NCBI GenBank assembly: GCA_017938625.1
Contig: JAGBBD010000041.1
Coordinates: 1 to 52,851 of the forward strand
Direction: 5' to 3'
DNA: 52,851 nt
Source of the DNA: Oscillospiraceae bacterium
Lineage (GTDB): Bacteria > Bacillota > Clostridia > Oscillospirales > Oscillospiraceae
A program made the position numbers and the translations under genes. The notes beneath the pieces are model-generated. The model was not told where the DNA came from, searched no databases, and saw nothing but the letters and a program-made list of their open reading frames with translations. Numbering within the stretch: position 1 is the stretch's first letter; each line of letters begins with the position of its first letter. Of the stretch, positions 4,831 through 48,282 are shown piece by piece.

Positions 4831-5544
4831 TTATTTCATTCTCAGCAGCCGCTCCACGCGCTTGTAAAGCAGCAGGGTAACGACCGATACCAGCACGCCT
4901 TTGAGCAGATTAAAGGGAACAACGGCATACAGCACCAAGGTGGAAACGCTTGTAATATGGGCATTGACGTCTGTGCCCATGCCGATGATCGCCTCAAGAG
5001 GCATACCGTAGAGCTGCGCGAACTTGGGCAGCAGATAGATGGCGTTGAAAGCGCTGCCGAATACGGTCATGATCAGCGTACCTGCGACCATGCCCCAGAT
5101 GGCGGTGGCTCTTGTTTTTCTGCAATGATAAATGATGGATGCAGGCAGCACCAGTGCGCAGCCTACCACAAAGTTGGCGAAGTCGCCCACAAAGGCGGTG
5201 GAAGTGCCTTTGAGCAGCAGTTTCAGCAGTACCTTCACAAATTCACAGATCACGCCGGATACAGGCCCCAGATAGAATGTGCAGATCAGCACAGGGATCT
5301 CGCTGAAATCGATCTGATAGAAGGGTGGCGCAAAGGGGAGCGCGATCTCAATGTACATCAGCGCAGCAGCAATGGCGCCGAACATGGCGATAAAGCTCAC
5401 ACGGCGGGCAGATGAGATGTTCTTTTTGCTTTTGGTGAGGAAGTGCTCTGCCAGCCATGCAACAAGCACGATCGCCAGAAAGATCCCAAGACAGGTGAGC
5501 AGGAAGAGTCCATTTTCTTTTGCTGTTAAAAGCAGTTCTTTCAT
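4831..5544 (-). CDS. ribU: Riboflavin ECF transporter S component
   Basis: A 237-residue integral membrane protein that binds riboflavin or FMN outside the cell and works with an EcfAA'T energizing module. Two N-terminal segments precede a core beginning near VSFIAMFGAIAAALMYIEI; the stretch FAPPFYQIDFSEIPVLI and the GPVSGV loop are typical of RibU. The substrate call is supported independently by an FMN riboswitch directly upstream. Start: ATG at 5544 follows GGAGG with good spacing; the frame extends ten residues upstream into the riboswitch terminator region and that extension is not credible. It has its own terminator downstream. Confidence 0.93.
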   Translation of the reverse strand: MKELLLTAKENGLFLLTCLGIFLAIVLVAWLAEHFLTKSKKNISSARRVSFIAMFGAIAAALMYIEIALPFAPPFYQIDFSEIPVLICTFYLGPVSGVICEFVKVLLKLLLKGTSTAFVGDFANFVVGCALVLPASIIYHCRKTRATAIWGMVAGTLIMTVFGSAFNAIYLLPKFAQLYGMPLEAIIGMGTDVNAHITSVSTLVLYAVVPFNLLKGVLVSVVTLLLYKRVERLLRMK

Positions 5545-5600: not shown

Positions 5601-5618
5601 AGAAGAGCCAAAGCCCCT

Positions 5619-5724
5619 ATCTTCTTTCATCCAGACTATACTGTCGGTACCGGAGTTTCACCGGTTCAGCTTACGCGCGCGGACTTTACCGCCGATCGGG
5701 AATTTCACCCTGCCCTGAAGACAT
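5619..5724 (-). ncRNA. FMN riboswitch (RFN element)
   Basis: The minus strand carries the conserved RFN blocks in order: GGGCAGGGTGAAATTCCCGA, CGGCGGTAAAGTCCGCG, GAACCGGTGAAACTCCGGTA and CCGACAGTATAGTCTGGATG, closed by a short CTTC/GAAG stem. It senses FMN and shuts off ribU when flavin is plentiful. Confidence 0.97.
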
Positions 5725-5749
5725 CCTTATTTCCTTGTTTGTACTAACT

Positions 5750-40970: not shown

Positions 40971-41044
40971 GGCCCTGTAGCGCAGCTGGGAGCGCATTAC
41001 ATTCGCATCGATATGGACGCACATCGACCAACGACGGCTGGCCC
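40971..41044 (+). pseudogene. Decayed tRNA gene
   Basis: Resembles a tRNA in its first half: GTAGCGCAGCTGGGAGCGC is a D-arm and the following CATTCGCAT copies an anticodon loop (CGC). After that the anticodon stem does not close, no T-arm (GGTTCGA) exists and the acceptor ends do not pair. It shares the D-arm and anticodon-loop pattern with the intact tRNA-Ala 96 bases on, so it looks like a broken duplicate. Confidence 0.6.
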
Positions 41045-41139
41045 AAAATTTTGGAGAGAAATTCCTCCGAAACTCACGAAAACTTCAAAACACAAAAATC
41101 CGCTTTTTGTTCTGAAAAACGGAAAAAAAGCGGCAATAT

Positions 41140-41215
41140 GGGCCTATAGCTCAGCTGGGAGAGCGTACGGTTCGCATCCGTAAGGTCGTCGGTTCGATCC
41201 CGATTAGGTCCACCA
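41140..41215 (+). tRNA. tRNA-Ala (anticodon CGC)
   Basis: Acceptor GGGCCTA pairs with TAGGTCC (one G-U), D-arm GCTC/GAGC, anticodon stem TACGG/CCGTA around the loop TTCGCAT, T-arm GTCGG-TTCGATC-CCGAT, and an encoded ACCA end at 41212-41215. The anticodon CGC reads GCG alanine codons. A terminator hairpin follows. Accessory DNA starts right after it, so it could be the attachment site of the adjacent element. Confidence 0.95.
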
Positions 41216-41254: not shown

Positions 41255-41306
41255 GTTTGACCACAATAATACCACAGACGGGAATAAATCTTGGTCACTT
41301 TACTAG

Positions 41307-41345
41307 AACAAGGTCGGCGAGCATTAGATGCGCACCGACCTTGTT
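41307..41345. terminator. Hairpin at the end of the TIR-caspase operon
   Basis: AACAAGGTCGG and CCGACCTTGTT form an 11-bp stem around a 17-base region that holds a smaller hairpin (GCAT/ATGC). It lies 50 bases beyond the TIR stop codon. A T-stretch (TTGTTTTAG) follows only on the plus strand; on the minus strand it is a hairpin without a T-run. Confidence 0.55.
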
Positions 41346-41394
41346 TTAGATTATCTTTGATTATAGCGACGCAAATGCCAACGTAATTGGCGTA

Positions 41395-41808
41395 TTATCC
41401 CAACTCTTTTATTGCGTTTACAATAGAATTGGTATTCCAACCCACGACCTTATCTGCTGCCGCTTTAACAACAGAAGACGTCTTCTCTGCTCCCCACGGT
41501 TGAATTGCAATAATCGGCTTTGGGTTGTTAAACCCATTCTGGGCTAAATCAATTTCTTTGTTTATCCACTTGCTATATGTGGAGTAGACACCCGCCAAAA
41601 TCAAAACCACACTGGCATGAGACATCTGCTCTTTGATTGCAGCTTTGAGCTGAGCATCAGTCTTTGCCCCTTTGATTGGATCATCCTCAGGTACAGAGTA
41701 GTCGCAATACGTAAAGTTTTCAGCTTTGTCGAGCAACTTTATCAGTTTCTCATAAGCATCAGAATACTTCCAGGAATGGCTTATAAAAATATGATATGTC
41801 TTAGACAT
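41395..41808 (-). CDS. TIR-like domain protein (ThsB-type sensor/synthase candidate)
   Basis: A compact 137-residue single-domain protein. It opens HIFISHSWKYSDAYEKL, the box-1 strand and helix of TIR-like (DUF1863/MTH538) domains, has ASVVLILAGVYSTYSKWI, and places a glutamate (Glu85) in WINKEIDLA, where TIR NADases carry their catalytic acid. In Thoeris defence such proteins sense phage and turn NAD into a cyclic nucleotide signal. It is the second gene of an operon behind a caspase-like gene; GGAGGA is six bases upstream of the ATG and only 12 bases separate the genes. Enzymatic activity is inferred. Confidence 0.88.
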   Translation of the reverse strand: MSKTYHIFISHSWKYSDAYEKLIKLLDKAENFTYCDYSVPEDDPIKGAKTDAQLKAAIKEQMSHASVVLILAGVYSTYSKWINKEIDLAQNGFNNPKPIIAIQPWGAEKTSSVVKAAADKVVGWNTNSIVNAIKELG

Positions 41809-41820
41809 GCTACTTCCTCC

Positions 41821-42789
41821 TCATATAGTGTTTTTCTTCACGAGATTCCAATAGTGCTGTCCTTGTGCCGTTAACTTACAGGATTTATAGTTGATTGCAG
41901 CATAATACATATGCTCAGCGTTGACAGGAACAACCAGATTAAGTTTTACATATTTCTGCAGGATAGCAAAAATCGCCTCGTGTTCCTTATTGATCGTTTT
42001 ATCAGCCACCTCATGCTTGTCAGGTTCATAAGTCGGATCAAGCGCATACTCCTCGTATGGAGAGGTAAAAATGTCCGTTATCTTGCGCAACTCGGTAATC
42101 TGAATAGGTGGCGCATTCTTTCTCAAAGAAACAAAGCTGTTGATATTGGCCTTAAAAACAGGCCGTTGCTCCCACGCACCCAGCGATCGATCTATATATG
42201 AATAGATACTGCCGGGAGACACTTCTCCAAGCAAGTTCATAGCTCCGCCGTATAAAGCTTCCACGAGTAAAGACGTAAAAATCCCGTGCCCATTTTCTTC
42301 GGTGGCATATTCGGATTCTCCACAAGCCGCAAGAATTGTTGTCCCGTTATGAAGCACCGAATACTCTGGCATGTTTACGGAATTAGCAATAGCACCGCTA
42401 AAACAGCTATCAAGAATAATGATCTTGTTCTGGGCGTTAGATTTTGACACAAACCCCATAATATCACTCAAAGGAAGACCCTCGTCAGGTCTGCTAATCT
42501 CACTTGTGCATAAGTAGCCACCCAAGGCATCAAAGGAACCGTGTCCAGAATAGTAGAACACCGCTATCTCGGGTGCACCGCTAAACAGCTCTTCAACAGC
42601 ATCCCTCAGGTCAGCGCGCGTAACATAGGATGCATCGCTTGTTGCAGAAATAAGTTTTACGTCAAAGTTCAAAGTTCCATCGCCATTGCGCTCTAAAGCC
42701 GACTTTACGGAGTTAGCATCGTTAACACACCCGTGCAAATCATTAATAACCTTATAGCTATCTATACCGACACACAATGCTTTTCTCAT
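41821..42789 (-). CDS. Caspase-like (C14) protease, effector candidate of TIR-caspase defence
   Basis: A 322-residue protein whose first 210 residues are a caspase/metacaspase fold: KALCVGIDSYKVINDLHGCV at the N-terminus, the catalytic histidine His83 in YYSGHGS and cysteine Cys129 in ILDSCFSGA, and a further block ILAACGESEYATEENGHGIF. The last 110 residues (from about ITELRKITDIFTSPYEEYAL) are not caspase and are the natural place for a ligand sensor. With a TIR partner it matches the TIR-caspase system known as type IV Thoeris, in which the signal N7-cADPR activates the protease and it degrades cell proteins to stop the phage. Ribosome site GGAGG; own promoter upstream. Confidence 0.88.
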   Translation of the reverse strand: MRKALCVGIDSYKVINDLHGCVNDANSVKSALERNGDGTLNFDVKLISATSDASYVTRADLRDAVEELFSGAPEIAVFYYSGHGSFDALGGYLCTSEISRPDEGLPLSDIMGFVSKSNAQNKIIILDSCFSGAIANSVNMPEYSVLHNGTTILAACGESEYATEENGHGIFTSLLVEALYGGAMNLLGEVSPGSIYSYIDRSLGAWEQRPVFKANINSFVSLRKNAPPIQITELRKITDIFTSPYEEYALDPTYEPDKHEVADKTINKEHEAIFAILQKYVKLNLVVPVNAEHMYYAAINYKSCKLTAQGQHYWNLVKKNTI

Positions 42790-42825
42790 GTTGCCTCCTA
42801 TAAAGTAAAAGTCATGGTTTCTTTA

Positions 42826-42854
42826 ATTATACCGCAGTAGCATCCACTTTACAA
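42826..42854 (-). promoter_or_regulatory. Promoter of the caspase-TIR operon
   Basis: On the minus strand TTGTAA (complement of 42849-42854), a 17-bp spacer and an exact TATAAT (complement of 42826-42831), 37 bases before the caspase start codon. The pair therefore has its own expression signal, independent of the integrase genes. Confidence 0.75.
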
Positions 42855-42935: not shown

Positions 42936-44519
42936 TTATGGTGTTGATGATACTGCCATCTCTGCTCGAACTTCATCATAGTATTTCTGCACCGTAGTTC
43001 GGTCAATGCCTAACTGCCGTGCGATGTAGCTTTTGTTGCTCACGCCGGGGTTCTCCACCAAGTAGGCAGCAATCTGCTTTTTCTTGGGGCTGACGCCGTC
43101 AGGATATTCCGTGGCCTTGCCGGAGCGCAGAGCGGCAATCTCTGCTTTCATCTGGATGATGAGGTCTGCCAGCTTCGCCTCTGTCTCCTCTTGGGTTCGT
43201 CCATATACATTTCGTGAATGCTTTTTACCATCAGGCCATACCGGAGAGTACCGGCCTTCCCAGAGATGGTCGTTGAGTTGCTTGATGTACCCCGTGCCTG
43301 GTCTGCGGCGAGGTAACTTGACTGGCTCGAACACCTGTGTTTCAGCGTGCGTTTCCGTTTCCTTTTCCTCGACCTCCGCTTTTGCGATGCCTCGGTCAAT
43401 ATTTGCGGCAGCGTTTTCCTGCATCTCACTGGTGATGTGGCTGTAGATATTCAATGTGGTCCTGGAGGAGACGTGTCCAATGATGCTGGAGAGCGTTTTC
43501 ACATCCATGCCATGCTCCAGTGACATGGTTACAAATGTGTGCCGGAGATCATGGAAACGCACCTTTTTACAGTCCGCACGCTGCAGTATCTGTTGGAGTC
43601 GCTTTCGGACATAGCCAGGGTCAATCGGCTGTTCCGGCTTGATGCGGGACGGGAACATCAGCGGGGAGAAGATCCCCTTTTTGTATTCTTTCAGCAGTTC
43701 CACCATAGGCGGTGGCAGGACGATGGTGCGGAATGCGGCCTTGGTTTTCGGCTCACACAGAATGATTTTGCCTCCTGCAGGTGTAAACTGCTTGTTGATG
43801 TGCAGTTCGCCTGTTTTGAAGTTCAGGTCATCCCATGTGAGTGCCAGGATTTCTCCACGGCGAAGGCCCGTAGTCAATTCCAAAAGGAAGAGTTCGTACA
43901 TACCTTCCTCTTTTGCTTGGATCAGAAACCGTTGGATTTCATCCATCGAGAGAAGCTTCATTTCCTTTTGCTCTGTTGGCGGCAGCTTTACGCCAAGGAT
44001 GGGGTTCTTTTTGATAAGACCGTCTTTGACAGCCCTCTCCAGCGCCATCCTGATCATGTGATAGCAGCTTCGTACAGACTTCTCTGACATTCCGGGGCCT
44101 TTCGTATCACGATGAATTTTGCGTCCGTTAGCTTTCATTTCATTGAGGAACTTCTGGCAGTCGGCCTGGGTCAGTTTGTTCAGCTTGATATGACCGAGCG
44201 CAGGAATGACATGGACATAGATCCATTCCTCGTAGCCCTTTTGCGTGGTAGGACGGATGCTGGGTTTGCTGTGGTTTTCGTACCAGTAGTTGATCCAATC
44301 ACCGAAGCGCATGTCGGGCTTGATTTTGAAGGGCGACACCTCGCCGTATTCAGCCTGTAGCTTATTCAGCTTTTCGATGCACTCGGCCTTGGTCTTTGCC
44401 AGTACGCTTTTTGTCTTGGCCTTGCCGTTTTCATCATAGCCTACGATATGGCGGCCCTCCCAGCGTCCGTCCTTTCTCTCGCGGACAGTGCCTTGACCGT
44501 TTTTGCGTTTCTTGGCCAT
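42936..44519 (-). CDS. Tyrosine integrase with duplicated arm-binding domain and C-terminal HTH
   Basis: A 527-residue site-specific recombinase. N-terminal AP2-like arm-binding domain (GQGTVRERKDGRWEGRHIV), a SAM-like core-binding domain (DWINYWYENHSKPSIRPTT) and the catalytic domain with LTTGLRRGEILALTW, HDLRHTFVTMSLEHG and IIGHVSSRTTLNIYSH. It is about 140 residues longer than usual: after residue 405 a second copy of the arm-binding pattern appears (GTGYIKQLNDHLWEGRY) and then a helix-turn-helix (KSYIARQLGIDRTTVQKYYD). Start codon four bases beyond the stop of the other integrase. Confidence 0.93.
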   Translation of the reverse strand: MAKKRKNGQGTVRERKDGRWEGRHIVGYDENGKAKTKSVLAKTKAECIEKLNKLQAEYGEVSPFKIKPDMRFGDWINYWYENHSKPSIRPTTQKGYEEWIYVHVIPALGHIKLNKLTQADCQKFLNEMKANGRKIHRDTKGPGMSEKSVRSCYHMIRMALERAVKDGLIKKNPILGVKLPPTEQKEMKLLSMDEIQRFLIQAKEEGMYELFLLELTTGLRRGEILALTWDDLNFKTGELHINKQFTPAGGKIILCEPKTKAAFRTIVLPPPMVELLKEYKKGIFSPLMFPSRIKPEQPIDPGYVRKRLQQILQRADCKKVRFHDLRHTFVTMSLEHGMDVKTLSSIIGHVSSRTTLNIYSHITSEMQENAAANIDRGIAKAEVEEKETETHAETQVFEPVKLPRRRPGTGYIKQLNDHLWEGRYSPVWPDGKKHSRNVYGRTQEETEAKLADLIIQMKAEIAALRSGKATEYPDGVSPKKKQIAAYLVENPGVSNKSYIARQLGIDRTTVQKYYDEVRAEMAVSSTP

Positions 44520-44523
44520 GTGT

Positions 44524-45669
44524 TCACCCCTTTACCATGAAATTTTCCATGAAGCCACCTACAATTTCTGATGCTTTTTGATGCATATCACCGGTGACAT
44601 GGGTGTAGGTATCCAGTGTGAAGGATGTCTTCGTATGACCTAAGATGCCTGAGAGCGTTTTGGCATCCACGCCGCTGGTCAGGGCATGGGTTGCGAAGGT
44701 GTGTCTGAGGTCATGGAAACGCATGTTGGGTAGCCCTGCGTCTTTCATTATCTTCTTCATGCGGTGGTATCCGCTGTTGGGCATTACAGGGTCTTCCGGA
44801 CGGATGGGATTATGGAATATCCACTGAGAGATGGATTTCTTTTTCCGCTCTGCCAGAAGCTGTACTGTGCTGGGCGGCAATTTGATATTTCTGCGGCCTG
44901 TGCCGGTTTTGGTGTCGCCCACATAGTAACCGCCACCGTCCTTGCGGTGCAGTGTCCTGCGAATGGTGAGCGTGCCTTTCTTCTCATCAAAGTCTGTCCA
45001 CATGAGACCGCACAGCTCACCCTGCCGCAGACCTGTGGTGATCTCCAGATAGAAGAAGTCGTGCCAGTGTTCGTCAGCTTTGATGGCTTCCATGAAGCGT
45101 TCCAGCTGTTCATCATTGAGAATGGTTTTGGCGGTGGCCACCTTCTTGGGCAATGTCACATCGTTGGAAGGATTCTTTGCGATGAGGTGCCGATTTACCG
45201 CTACATCCAGTGCCTGATGCAGTACGTTGTGTATCCTGCGCACCGTGGTTCCTGCCAGAGGGCCGCCATTGACGGAACCTTCTGTCTGGAGCTTGCGGTA
45301 CAGGCTCTGGATTTCTGCGGTGGTGACCTTGCAGATTTGTTTGTTGCCAAGGTAGGGCTTGATGTTCTTTTCCACGTATCCACGGTAGCCTTTAATGGTG
45401 GTAGGACGTACTGTCGGCTCCGCACATTCAACCAGCCAGATATCCAGCCATTCGCCCAGTGTCATTCGGCTCTGCTCAGTCAGCTCTGCACCGTCATATT
45501 CATCGATGCTCTTGTGGAGTTTCTCCAGAAGAGTTTTTTGTGTTTTTGCGGACATGTAATGGAAGATGGGGTCGCCGTTTTTCTTGTGACCGACCACGAT
45601 GCGGCCTTCCCATCGCCCATCATCACGCTGTCGTACCAGTCCGTCGCCGGACGGTCTTCGTTTTGCCAT
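44524..45669 (-). CDS. Tyrosine integrase
   Basis: A 381-residue recombinase of standard layout: AP2-like arm-binding domain (GDGLVRQRDDGRWEGRIVV), SAM-like domain (WLDIWLVECAEPTVRPTT), and catalytic residues in ITTGLRQGELCGLMW, FHDLRHTFATHALTSG and ILGHTKTSFTLDTYTHV. Similar in build to the integrase next to it but clearly divergent, so the two are paralogues rather than a recent tandem copy. AAGGAGG precedes the ATG and overlaps the previous gene's stop. Confidence 0.95.
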   Translation of the reverse strand: MAKRRPSGDGLVRQRDDGRWEGRIVVGHKKNGDPIFHYMSAKTQKTLLEKLHKSIDEYDGAELTEQSRMTLGEWLDIWLVECAEPTVRPTTIKGYRGYVEKNIKPYLGNKQICKVTTAEIQSLYRKLQTEGSVNGGPLAGTTVRRIHNVLHQALDVAVNRHLIAKNPSNDVTLPKKVATAKTILNDEQLERFMEAIKADEHWHDFFYLEITTGLRQGELCGLMWTDFDEKKGTLTIRRTLHRKDGGGYYVGDTKTGTGRRNIKLPPSTVQLLAERKKKSISQWIFHNPIRPEDPVMPNSGYHRMKKIMKDAGLPNMRFHDLRHTFATHALTSGVDAKTLSGILGHTKTSFTLDTYTHVTGDMHQKASEIVGGFMENFMVKG

Positions 45670-46341: not shown

Positions 46342-48282
46342 CTACATGGACATGGTCGGGCCAGTGTACTCATGGTCATCTTCCTTGTGACCGAGTGCAA
46401 TCTTCTTCTCCTGAAGCCGCTTCAACCGCTTACGGTCGATTTGAATACCGCCGGGGCGGGACTGGGGAAGAGAGTTGTCCTGAAAGATCCGTCCCATGTG
46501 GTGGAGCAGTCTGGTGACACCCAGAAACACATTGGGCGGTAAATCGCTGTTCTGCCTGTTCAGCAGTGCATCAGCATAGGCGTTGCCCTGGTATGCAGAT
46601 TTGGTCAGCCAGTGGATGCCCCTGTCTCTATCATACTCCACACCCTGTCCCATAAGATACACTTTACCGAGCATGTATTGGGCGTATTGGTTTCCGTCCT
46701 GTGCAGCTCGTTCAAACCACTGCGCCGCCGTGGTGTAGCTGCCAGGTACGTTGAGGCCTTTGTAGTATTCCTTGCCCAGACGGTAGGCGGCGTAGTCATT
46801 GCCGTTCTGAGCGGAGATCTCCAGCCAGCGTATTCCAGAGTCCGGATCACGCACTTCAACATCATAGGAGAGCTGGAGTTTGCCGAGAGAGTACTGCGCG
46901 TACATGTGACCTTGCTGTGCCGCCTGCCGAAACCAGTATCTTGCCGTCACGCTGTCCGGTGTCAGTAGCGGCCCGTCACGGTACAGCTTGCCCATGAGAT
47001 ACTGGGCATCCATATCACCCTCTCTCGCCAGCTGCTCCATGTCGTTGACTGCATCCAGCCGGTCTTCCAGAGAGTAGTCCTCGTTGTAGATGTCGCTTCG
47101 GAAGTCCCAATAGTCACGGGAACAGTATTCAAAATCCTCCGGCTCACTTTCTGCTTCCACACCCTTATCTTCGAAGAATAGGTCACACTTGCGGATGTGC
47201 TCGGCCTGTTTGATGACCGCGTTCTTGATAGCACGGAACTCTTGCTGCTGAGACAGAGGAGCACGCTCGCGAGGATTATCATCGTAGTAGCCGTCCACCT
47301 TGTTCTGGAGTTCCAGCCACTTGTCGTATGCCTGACTGACAGAACGGATGCGCTCCATTTGGTCAACGATCTTGTCCACCAACACCTTCTGCTTTTTCGG
47401 AAGGTAGCCGTAGCTTTTCTTGCCACTGACATTTTGTAATTGCATGGCCAGCTCCAGTATCAGGTTCTCTGCTTCCGGATGGTCACAGATACCATCCTTC
47501 ATGTACTGCACCATTTCCAGCATGGCCTTCCGCGCTTCATGCACCAACTCATCGCGAGACTCAGATTTCTGCTCGTGGAGATGGTGCATCTCATCATGGA
47601 AGATGTCGTTGGTGAGTTTGGACTTGATTGCTTTGATGCCGTCCTTGGACAGATAGGCCTGTCCTGGTTTTGCAGACCATGCCATCATGTGAACGTGTGG
47701 ATGGTCGCCTTCATCATGGAAGGCAGCGCACCAACGGAAGTCGTTGGGGTGGATCTTCATGGCGTCCGCAATCTGATTGCGGTTTGCACGGAGCAGGTCA
47801 CGCCACGCGGATGCGTTATCGTAACCGAGACGGACAGCGTCCTCACGCTTGACGGAAATGATGTGTGTCCACACATTGCCGGTGTAGTTCTCCAGCTCCG
47901 CCATGGCCTTGTCCAGTGAGACGGTATCGTCATCACTGAACAGGCCGTGAGAGCCGAAGCGCTCTGCGCGGGGGCGGGTTGCGATGTACTTCATGTACTG
48001 CTCCGACCGGATCACCGAGTCCCAGTTGGATTCCAGCGCCAGCGTGATGAACGCAGAGGCGTTGACCTTGGTGGGCTTTGCCATATAGTCTTCGTACTCG
48101 TAGAGCGTTTTGGTATCTGGGAAATCTTTCACCAGTTTTGCGATGAGCTGCTCCTGCTTTCGTGTCGGCGGACGGTCATCGGGAACGACCTCTACTCGTT
48201 CACGGGTCGCGATGTACTTGAGATAGCCGGACGCGCCACCGGTGCTTTTGATATAGGGACTTTTTAATATCAGCTTTACCAT
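46342..48282 (-). CDS. MobP3-family relaxase with Sel1-like repeats
   Basis: Nicks the element's transfer origin and pilots the strand into a recipient. 646 residues. The N-terminal 250 are a MOB relaxase: the repeat GYLKYIATRERVEVVP with QYMKYIATRPRAERF, and the metal-binding three-histidine motif in FHDEGDHPHVHMMAW. From about residue 405 to 565 come Sel1-type repeats (AREGDMDAQYLMGKLYRDG; QQGHMYAQYSLGKLQL; NGNDYAAYRLGKEYYKG; DGNQYAQYMLGKVYLMG), a helical protein-interaction scaffold. Its start overlaps the mobC-like gene by seven bases. Confidence 0.92.
   Translation of the reverse strand: MVKLILKSPYIKSTGGASGYLKYIATRERVEVVPDDRPPTRKQEQLIAKLVKDFPDTKTLYEYEDYMAKPTKVNASAFITLALESNWDSVIRSEQYMKYIATRPRAERFGSHGLFSDDDTVSLDKAMAELENYTGNVWTHIISVKREDAVRLGYDNASAWRDLLRANRNQIADAMKIHPNDFRWCAAFHDEGDHPHVHMMAWSAKPGQAYLSKDGIKAIKSKLTNDIFHDEMHHLHEQKSESRDELVHEARKAMLEMVQYMKDGICDHPEAENLILELAMQLQNVSGKKSYGYLPKKQKVLVDKIVDQMERIRSVSQAYDKWLELQNKVDGYYDDNPRERAPLSQQQEFRAIKNAVIKQAEHIRKCDLFFEDKGVEAESEPEDFEYCSRDYWDFRSDIYNEDYSLEDRLDAVNDMEQLAREGDMDAQYLMGKLYRDGPLLTPDSVTARYWFRQAAQQGHMYAQYSLGKLQLSYDVEVRDPDSGIRWLEISAQNGNDYAAYRLGKEYYKGLNVPGSYTTAAQWFERAAQDGNQYAQYMLGKVYLMGQGVEYDRDRGIHWLTKSAYQGNAYADALLNRQNSDLPPNVFLGVTRLLHHMGRIFQDNSLPQSRPGGIQIDRKRLKRLQEKKIALGHKEDDHEYTGPTMSM

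Follow-up and report, generated by a model that had tools for sequence, protein, structure and literature searches.

This locus raises the question of whether a caspase-like protease gene and a TIR gene lying side by side form an anti-phage operon of the type IV Thoeris kind, and which signal would then connect the two proteins. The founding paper on type IV Thoeris, reported as a TIR-caspase system with the signal N7-cADPR, is that of Rousset et al. 2025 (doi 10.1126/science.adu2262). We analysed a stretch of 52,851 nucleotides (the window), which is one contig of a genome assembly that comprises 68 contigs and is 71% complete. The features referred to below are collected in Table 1.

The caspase and TIR genes form an intact operon

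The TIR-caspase operon is real, and both of its genes are intact. They lie on the same strand, the caspase gene first, and are separated by 12 nt (41809-41820), just as the earlier note had read them. Within the source assembly, at its 71% completeness, each of the two proteins is the only match to its family. A scan of the 2-kb region found six promoter-like sites as compared to 4.3 expected by chance, so the promoter-like site upstream of the caspase gene proves little by itself. The inverted repeat that follows the TIR gene was absent from the terminator-like sites of the promoter and terminator scan.

Table 1. Positions of features in the window and in the DNA of relatives (named by locus)
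Feature	Locus	Position	Strand	Evidence or remark
FMN riboswitch	window	5615-5726	-	side feature of the window
5' remnant of tRNA-Ala gene, approximate ends	window	40971..41008	+	sequence; probably left by an earlier insertion
tRNA-Ala (CGC), likely integration target	window	41140..41215	+	tRNA search; same-genus genome G395
Inverted repeat, 22-nt arms, 86% complementary, just 3' of the TIR stop; possible terminator	window	41303..41349	.	repeat search
Single-domain TIR gene, ThsB type, 137 aa	window	41395..41808	-	ORF list, Pfam; Phe8, Trp81, Glu85
Ribosome-binding site GGAGGA of the TIR gene, inside the 12-nt gap	window	41815..41820	-	read in sequence
Caspase-fold protease gene, 322 aa	window	41821..42789	-	ORF list; His83, Cys129
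C-terminal domain of the caspase, residues 226-322, putative signal-receiving part	window	41824..42114	-	alignment, model
Ribosome-binding site AGGAGG of the caspase gene	window	42794..42799	-	read in sequence
Promoter-like site TTGTAA-17-TATAAT upstream of the caspase gene	window	42826..42854	-	10/12 matches
Tyrosine integrase, 527 aa	window	42936..44519	-	PF00589, E 4.2e-24
Second tyrosine integrase, 381 aa	window	44524..45669	-	PF00589, E 7e-25
MobP3 relaxase with Sel1 repeats, 646 aa	window	46342..48282	-	NF041499, 382.7 bits (cut-off 150); Pfam Sel1
8xMP membrane protein beside a TIR	L019; L020	2986-3914; 2953-4029		PF24838, E 3.9e-39; E 3.1e-28
Protein of about 76-104 aa, gene immediately 3' of the caspase gene	L016; L018; L064; L065; L070; L072; L090; L098; L100; L111	4002-4280; 3987-4268; 5016-5243; 5023-5289; 4994-5275; 4987-5274; 5010-5321; 4987-5268; 4981-5259; 5004-5276		
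Protein of about 161 aa upstream of the caspase	L024; also L026, L029, L030, L004, L005, L011, L037	3313-3798 (L024)		
Protein of about 174 aa downstream of the caspase	L104; also L106, L107, L108 (viral contigs)	4987-5517 (L104)		

The pair is carried by a mobilisable element at a tRNA gene

The tRNA and mobile-element setting that had been claimed for the pair was also found: tRNA-Ala(CGC), the TIR-caspase pair, two tandem integrases, and the MobP3 relaxase follow each other in this order. By its position, the pair is cargo of an integrative mobilisable element. The alignment of the window with the same-genus genome G395 stops at 41008, and at the equivalent position G395 carries an intact tRNA-Ala(CGC). 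Another genome of the genus, G392, contains two tandem tRNA-like stretches, the second of which is cut by the contig end. Together with the tRNA remnant in the window, these arrangements point to an insertion site that was used repeatedly, and the region 40971-41215 is probably an integration hotspot.

A search for the second attachment site recovered the tRNA 3' end only once in the window (up to three mismatches), and the 17-nt tRNA core only once in the incomplete source genome (up to one mismatch). A 17-nt near-repeat at 41351 and 51531 may be due to chance and was not accepted as an attachment site. Searches for the tRNA end and for repeats in the window and the incomplete genome did not reveal the far end of the element; the contigs of the same-genus genomes G392, G395, and G396 stop at or shortly past the corresponding place. 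No plasmid record resembled the element, since seven records matched only 2-3% each of the 5.2-kb query, mostly within the caspase gene.

The protease has a conserved C-terminal domain

The protease matched Peptidase_C14 in Pfam (PF00656; E 1e-15, 58.5 bits with a cut-off of 21.4) and the PADLOC model 'caspase' (E 2.9e-18), the latter over residues 4-179 only. Its score against the NCBIfam model caspase_w_EACC1 (NF047832) was 93.6 bits and remained below the cut-off of 140. The catalytic residues, H83 in YYSGHGS and C129 in ILDSCFSGA, had been named correctly, and both are present in all 101 family caspases that we aligned. Pfam, the alignment, and the structure model agree on a caspase fold with a His/Cys dyad.

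A non-protease part of 110 residues had been proposed to follow the protease. Such a part exists and comprises about 97 residues, the caspase-fold match extending over residues 1-225 (VIA-align). In the structure model, pLDDT is 84-97 per ten-residue block from residue 221 onward and 88 for the last two residues. Eighteen columns of this domain are invariant across 38 aligned sequences including the window, and several positions are invariant among 92 full-length caspases, for example, H293, M294, A297, A298, T307, G310, and Y313. The suggestion that this part differs from known sensors was not supported: It is conserved in all aligned relatives, bacterial and archaeal, and therefore represents the standard domain of this caspase family rather than something special to the window.

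Pfam returned no match for the window copy of the domain at E 10 or for the copies of two other relatives that were scanned. An NlpE match in the domain of L041 (E 0.0096, 17.2 bits with a cut-off of 22) was dismissed. Against PDB sequences, the domain gave just chance-level rows (E about 1) that touch its start; PDB sequence searches with the window proteins returned metacaspases and MALT1 and no member of this caspase family. We consider the C-terminal domain to be most likely the signal receptor of the caspase. Its secondary structure would allow the guess of a winged-helix-like arrangement.

TIR genes accompany the caspase family

Scanning species genomes for caspase relatives at E 1e-3 resulted in at least 534 stretches, of which the best 80 were kept. 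These best 80 show near full-length matches with 49-83% identity and come from bacteria and archaea. Further relatives were found at 15 viral-contig loci, in 103 plasmid records (in 44 of these, a single place covers 80% or more of the query), and in two records among 50,697 from phages. Our sample of 101 caspases was composed of 79 from genome contigs, 13 from viral contigs, seven from plasmids, one from a whole-genome search, and the window; it consists mainly of the best 80 of at least 534 and is therefore biased toward sequences near this caspase family. We dropped before counting L004, a relative near-identical to L024, as well as L005, L011, and L037 (caspase frame broken), the second caspase ORF of L032 (less than 300 aa), and L116 and L117, which are cut by the contig end.

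A TIR gene is located within 250 nt of the caspase in 96 of the 101 sampled family members. As a control, we used other caspase-domain proteins of the same class (nine loci, six of them distinct), and no TIR match was obtained at E 1 in about 1.5 kb of flanking DNA on each side, that is, at none of the six distinct loci. Among the five exceptions in the family, L104 possesses an overlapping TIR that was overlooked by the script, L111 has TIRs on the opposite strand more than 1 kb away, and the sequence downstream of the L085 caspase resembles, by eye, a larger TIR-domain protein. In L071 (Methanocorpusculum), the caspase is intact, and a TIR of this type just downstream has decayed with a broken frame (about 4960-5400). 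L073 probably also contains a decayed TIR, because its caspase is identical to that of L071 and the DNA matches there too.

Within the host lineage, the TIR-caspase pair is patchy. Only eight of 391 genomes of the host class gave any caspase match; four of these are family members (the window genome, G295, G203, and a frame-broken copy in G010). The TIR was found in two of 60 relatives, namely, the window's own genome and G408, and in none of the seven other genomes of the host genus.

The TIR protein retains the active-site residues of ThsB

The TIR protein matched ThsB_TIR in Pfam (PF08937; E 2.8e-17, 63.4 bits with a cut-off of 21.2) and was called ThsB by PADLOC (E 1.7e-13). Foldseek searches with its AF2 model (mean pLDDT 83.8, pTM 0.82) returned MTH538, a B. 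cereus TIR, and EcThsB2, and also flavodoxin-like proteins with E-values similar to those of the ThsB proteins. E85 in WINKEIDLA had also been named correctly. Among 32 aligned clade-A-like TIRs including the window, F8 and E85 are invariant, and W81 is present in at least 90%. Judging from the alignment, the model, and Foldseek, the active-site Glu and Phe are in place. A study on S. aureus ThsB2 states that immunity requires the Phe/Glu pair F6 and E81 (PMC12578639), and we take F8 and E85 as their presumable counterparts.

The TIRs encoded beside the family caspases were assigned by hand, from a quick tree, to six clades (A-F). The column of Glu85 is occupied by Glu in 31/31, 15/15, 11/11, 13/14 (one gap), and 23/23 members of five of these clades. 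Several of the checks named in the earlier note turned out in its favor: The catalytic residues are kept in the alignments, the pair co-occurs in other genomes, and both folds were found in the structure models.

These data also bear on a quite different function, in which the TIR protein would hold the protease in check by binding to it, and the two would act as a toxin-antitoxin pair or maintain the element. Two small, close genes on a mobile element, in a cargo place between integrase and tRNA, would suit such a pair. But binding alone would not need the active-site Glu, which is kept over five clades, and a specific protein-protein antitoxin is hard to reconcile with very different TIR clades serving the same caspase family. 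Therefore, we regard this function as very unlikely.

The TIR gene of the window belongs to another clade than those beside the closest relatives of the caspase

A TIR type could be assigned at 95 of the 101 loci. The remaining six are the five loci without an adjacent TIR and L081, whose TIR falls between clades; L068 and L091 each have a second TIR that is also untyped. The window caspase belongs to a clade of 18 members (support 99 in the quick tree), and a careful tree with 32 rows recovered 16 of these with support 100/99. Fifteen of the 18 are accompanied by clade-B TIRs, L035 by clade C, L038 by clade F, and the window by clade A. The window TIR is 30-37% identical to the TIR type of these 15 members, and the split between it and clade B is firm (100/100 in the careful tree).

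The closest caspase, that of L023, is 83% identical to the window caspase; the corresponding TIRs are 34% identical. The TIR of L041 is 69% identical to the window TIR, and its caspase 58% identical to the window caspase. A tree with the window and L041 caspases as sisters was rejected by the AU test (p-AU 1.7e-43, a value that is too sharp because the groups were named after the trees had been seen). The window TIR joins L041 in the quick tree (96), and in a careful tree with added rows L041 joins G408 (95/43), the window TIR being unplaced inside clade A. G408, which belongs to the same taxonomic family, encodes a TIR that is 66% identical to the window's beside a 43%-identical caspase; for a Salmonella record in the phage collection, these values are 60% and 44%. 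At the DNA level, similarity to L023 spans 42792-41823 and ends with the caspase gene, and similarity to L041 continues through the TIR gene at about 66%. None of the compared loci was a donor close enough for mapping the breakpoint of an exchange.

On the caspase tree of the 95 typed loci, the TIR type changes at least 22 times, as counted on quick trees with a TIR alignment of few (138) columns; 200 shuffles gave a mean of 54.4 and a minimum of 49 changes. Gene order changes only twice (shuffles: mean 22.3, least 17). The TIR type is thus far from random, and related caspases usually retain it. At the same time, the TIRs change, whereas the side of the caspase on which they lie is kept. The caspase gene comes first at 25 of the 95 typed loci, and the TIR gene at the other 70. 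In the 18-member caspase clade, the typed TIR is always located downstream, L036 having an extra clade-F TIR upstream; 27 of 31 clade-A TIRs lie upstream of their caspase. Taken together, one conserved protease appears to stay while the TIR genes next to it are replaced in situ, in the manner of sensor cassettes. No description of such an exchange of TIR types was found in the literature that we covered, which comprised titles and the beginnings of abstracts and extended to papers other than the founding one on type IV.

An exchange of this kind could also have left a mismatched chimera without function, if the acquired TIR made a signal that the window caspase cannot read. All 17 other members of the caspase clade do occur with other TIR types, and the L071 locus demonstrates that a decayed TIR can stand beside an intact caspase. 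In the window, however, both frames are intact with conserved catalytic residues, and the TIR type has switched many times in the family. We consider a dead chimera very unlikely.

TIR type, effector, and signal

TIRs near that of the window also occur on a cyanobacterial and a haloarchaeal plasmid, where they adjoin 8xMP membrane proteins. In the careful tree, the TIR of L019 is placed inside clade A, and that of L020 is basal to it. TIR and 8xMP may represent a further TIR-effector pairing. This TIR type is accordingly not restricted to caspases and may have a product other than N7-cADPR; either caspase and 8xMP respond to one and the same signal, or such TIRs make more than one.

The locus could accordingly encode the same two-gene alarm with another signal (2'cADPR, 3'cADPR, His-ADPR, or another), read by a receptor that is co-adapted or permissive. 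The clade of the window TIR, which differs from that of the TIRs of the caspase's close relatives, agrees with this idea, as does the L019 TIR beside 8xMP. But TIRs from six clades are found with a single caspase family, the C-terminal domain of which is well conserved, and one shared signal is the simplest explanation for this. Therefore, we judge a different signal to be unlikely.

For the shared slot itself, we tentatively propose the following possibility, to which we give somewhat less than an even chance. The TIR position would be a sensor-cassette slot, in which six distant clades swap gene for gene on the same side of the conserved protease. This would require either a common signal for all of them or a receptor that reads more than one. 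The window would be a natural chimera: Its caspase, from a mostly gut-Firmicute clade, would have retained the receptor and acquired a TIR of clade A, a clade that would serve both caspase and 8xMP effectors.

Taken alone, the locus adds one further example of a putative TIR-caspase defence operon carried by a mobile element. Together with L023, which has nearly the same protease and a different TIR, it constitutes a natural sensor-swap experiment and hence a ready-made test of whether the signal chemistry of a TIR follows its ancestry or the neighboring effector. Swapping the TIRs between L023 and the window would also show whether TIR exchange alters the phages that are recognised.

Other genes near the caspases of relatives

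Ten relatives, five of them actinobacterial, have a gene for a protein of about 76-104 aa immediately after the caspase gene. All ten proteins tested match the RyR domain (PF02026) weakly and below the cut-off (E 2.7e-4 to 0.021); for the protein of L072, two other families score slightly above PF02026. In phages, proteins with a RyR domain have been described that break down cyclic ADPR signals or bind them (PMC13232231). By analogy, the downstream proteins could erase the signal from within the system or be additional proteins that bind it.

Several close relatives of the window caspase are preceded by a gene for a protein of about 161 aa that contains two hydrophobic stretches and is absent from the window; the one tested (L024) had no Pfam match. 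In four viral-contig copies, the caspase gene is followed by one for a protein of about 174 aa that likewise contains hydrophobic stretches, and its tested representative (L104) again gave no Pfam match. Further clade-F TIRs are found near the caspase in L014, L022, L036, L040, L102, L006, and others, and also in G408 (L121). Overall, the examined DNA of 14 of the 101 loci contains a clade-F match, and that of the window none.

Proposed mechanism and comparison with known systems

PMC12847820 describes type IV Thoeris as a TIR protein plus a caspase-like protease with the signal N7-cADPR: Triggered by infection, the TIR makes a cyclic ADPR isomer from NAD+, the protease is switched on and degrades cell proteins, and the phage is halted. 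The name is also used in PMC13373217. Adjacent genes for a TIR and a caspase-like protease in one operon are what we found at this locus. Together with the conserved catalytic residues, the co-occurrence of the pair, and the mobile setting, this upholds the original assignment to the type IV Thoeris kind, with membership resting on architecture and on the descriptions in other papers. We conclude that the locus is very probably a type IV Thoeris-class defence operon on a mobilisable element at tRNA-Ala(CGC).

Following this model, the TIR protein would sense a phage component, and its Phe8 and Glu85 would convert NAD+ to a nucleotide signal, most likely N7-cADPR. The signal would bind to the C-terminal domain of the caspase. 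The His83/Cys129 protease would then cut cellular proteins, so that the infection is stopped and the cell is lost. The weakest link of this mechanism is the identity of the signal.

Metacaspases and the paracaspase MALT1 correspond to the window caspase only over about residues 1-225; the C-terminal domain, compared with them by sequence only, has no convincing match there. The ThsB proteins of type I/II Thoeris (PF08937; PDB 8fz9, 8v6t, 6lhy) share the TIR fold and the Phe/Glu pair with the window TIR, but their effector is SIR2-SLOG or TM-macro, whereas that of the window is a caspase. Accordingly, the neighbor of the window TIR is not the type I effector ThsA (SIR2 plus SLOG). With type IV Thoeris, as described in the papers cited above, the window shares the two-gene operon of TIR and caspase-like protease, the conserved catalytic residues, and the mobile setting. 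It differs from most of the sampled loci in the rarer order of caspase then TIR, and from the loci of its close relatives in that its caspase stands beside a TIR of another clade.
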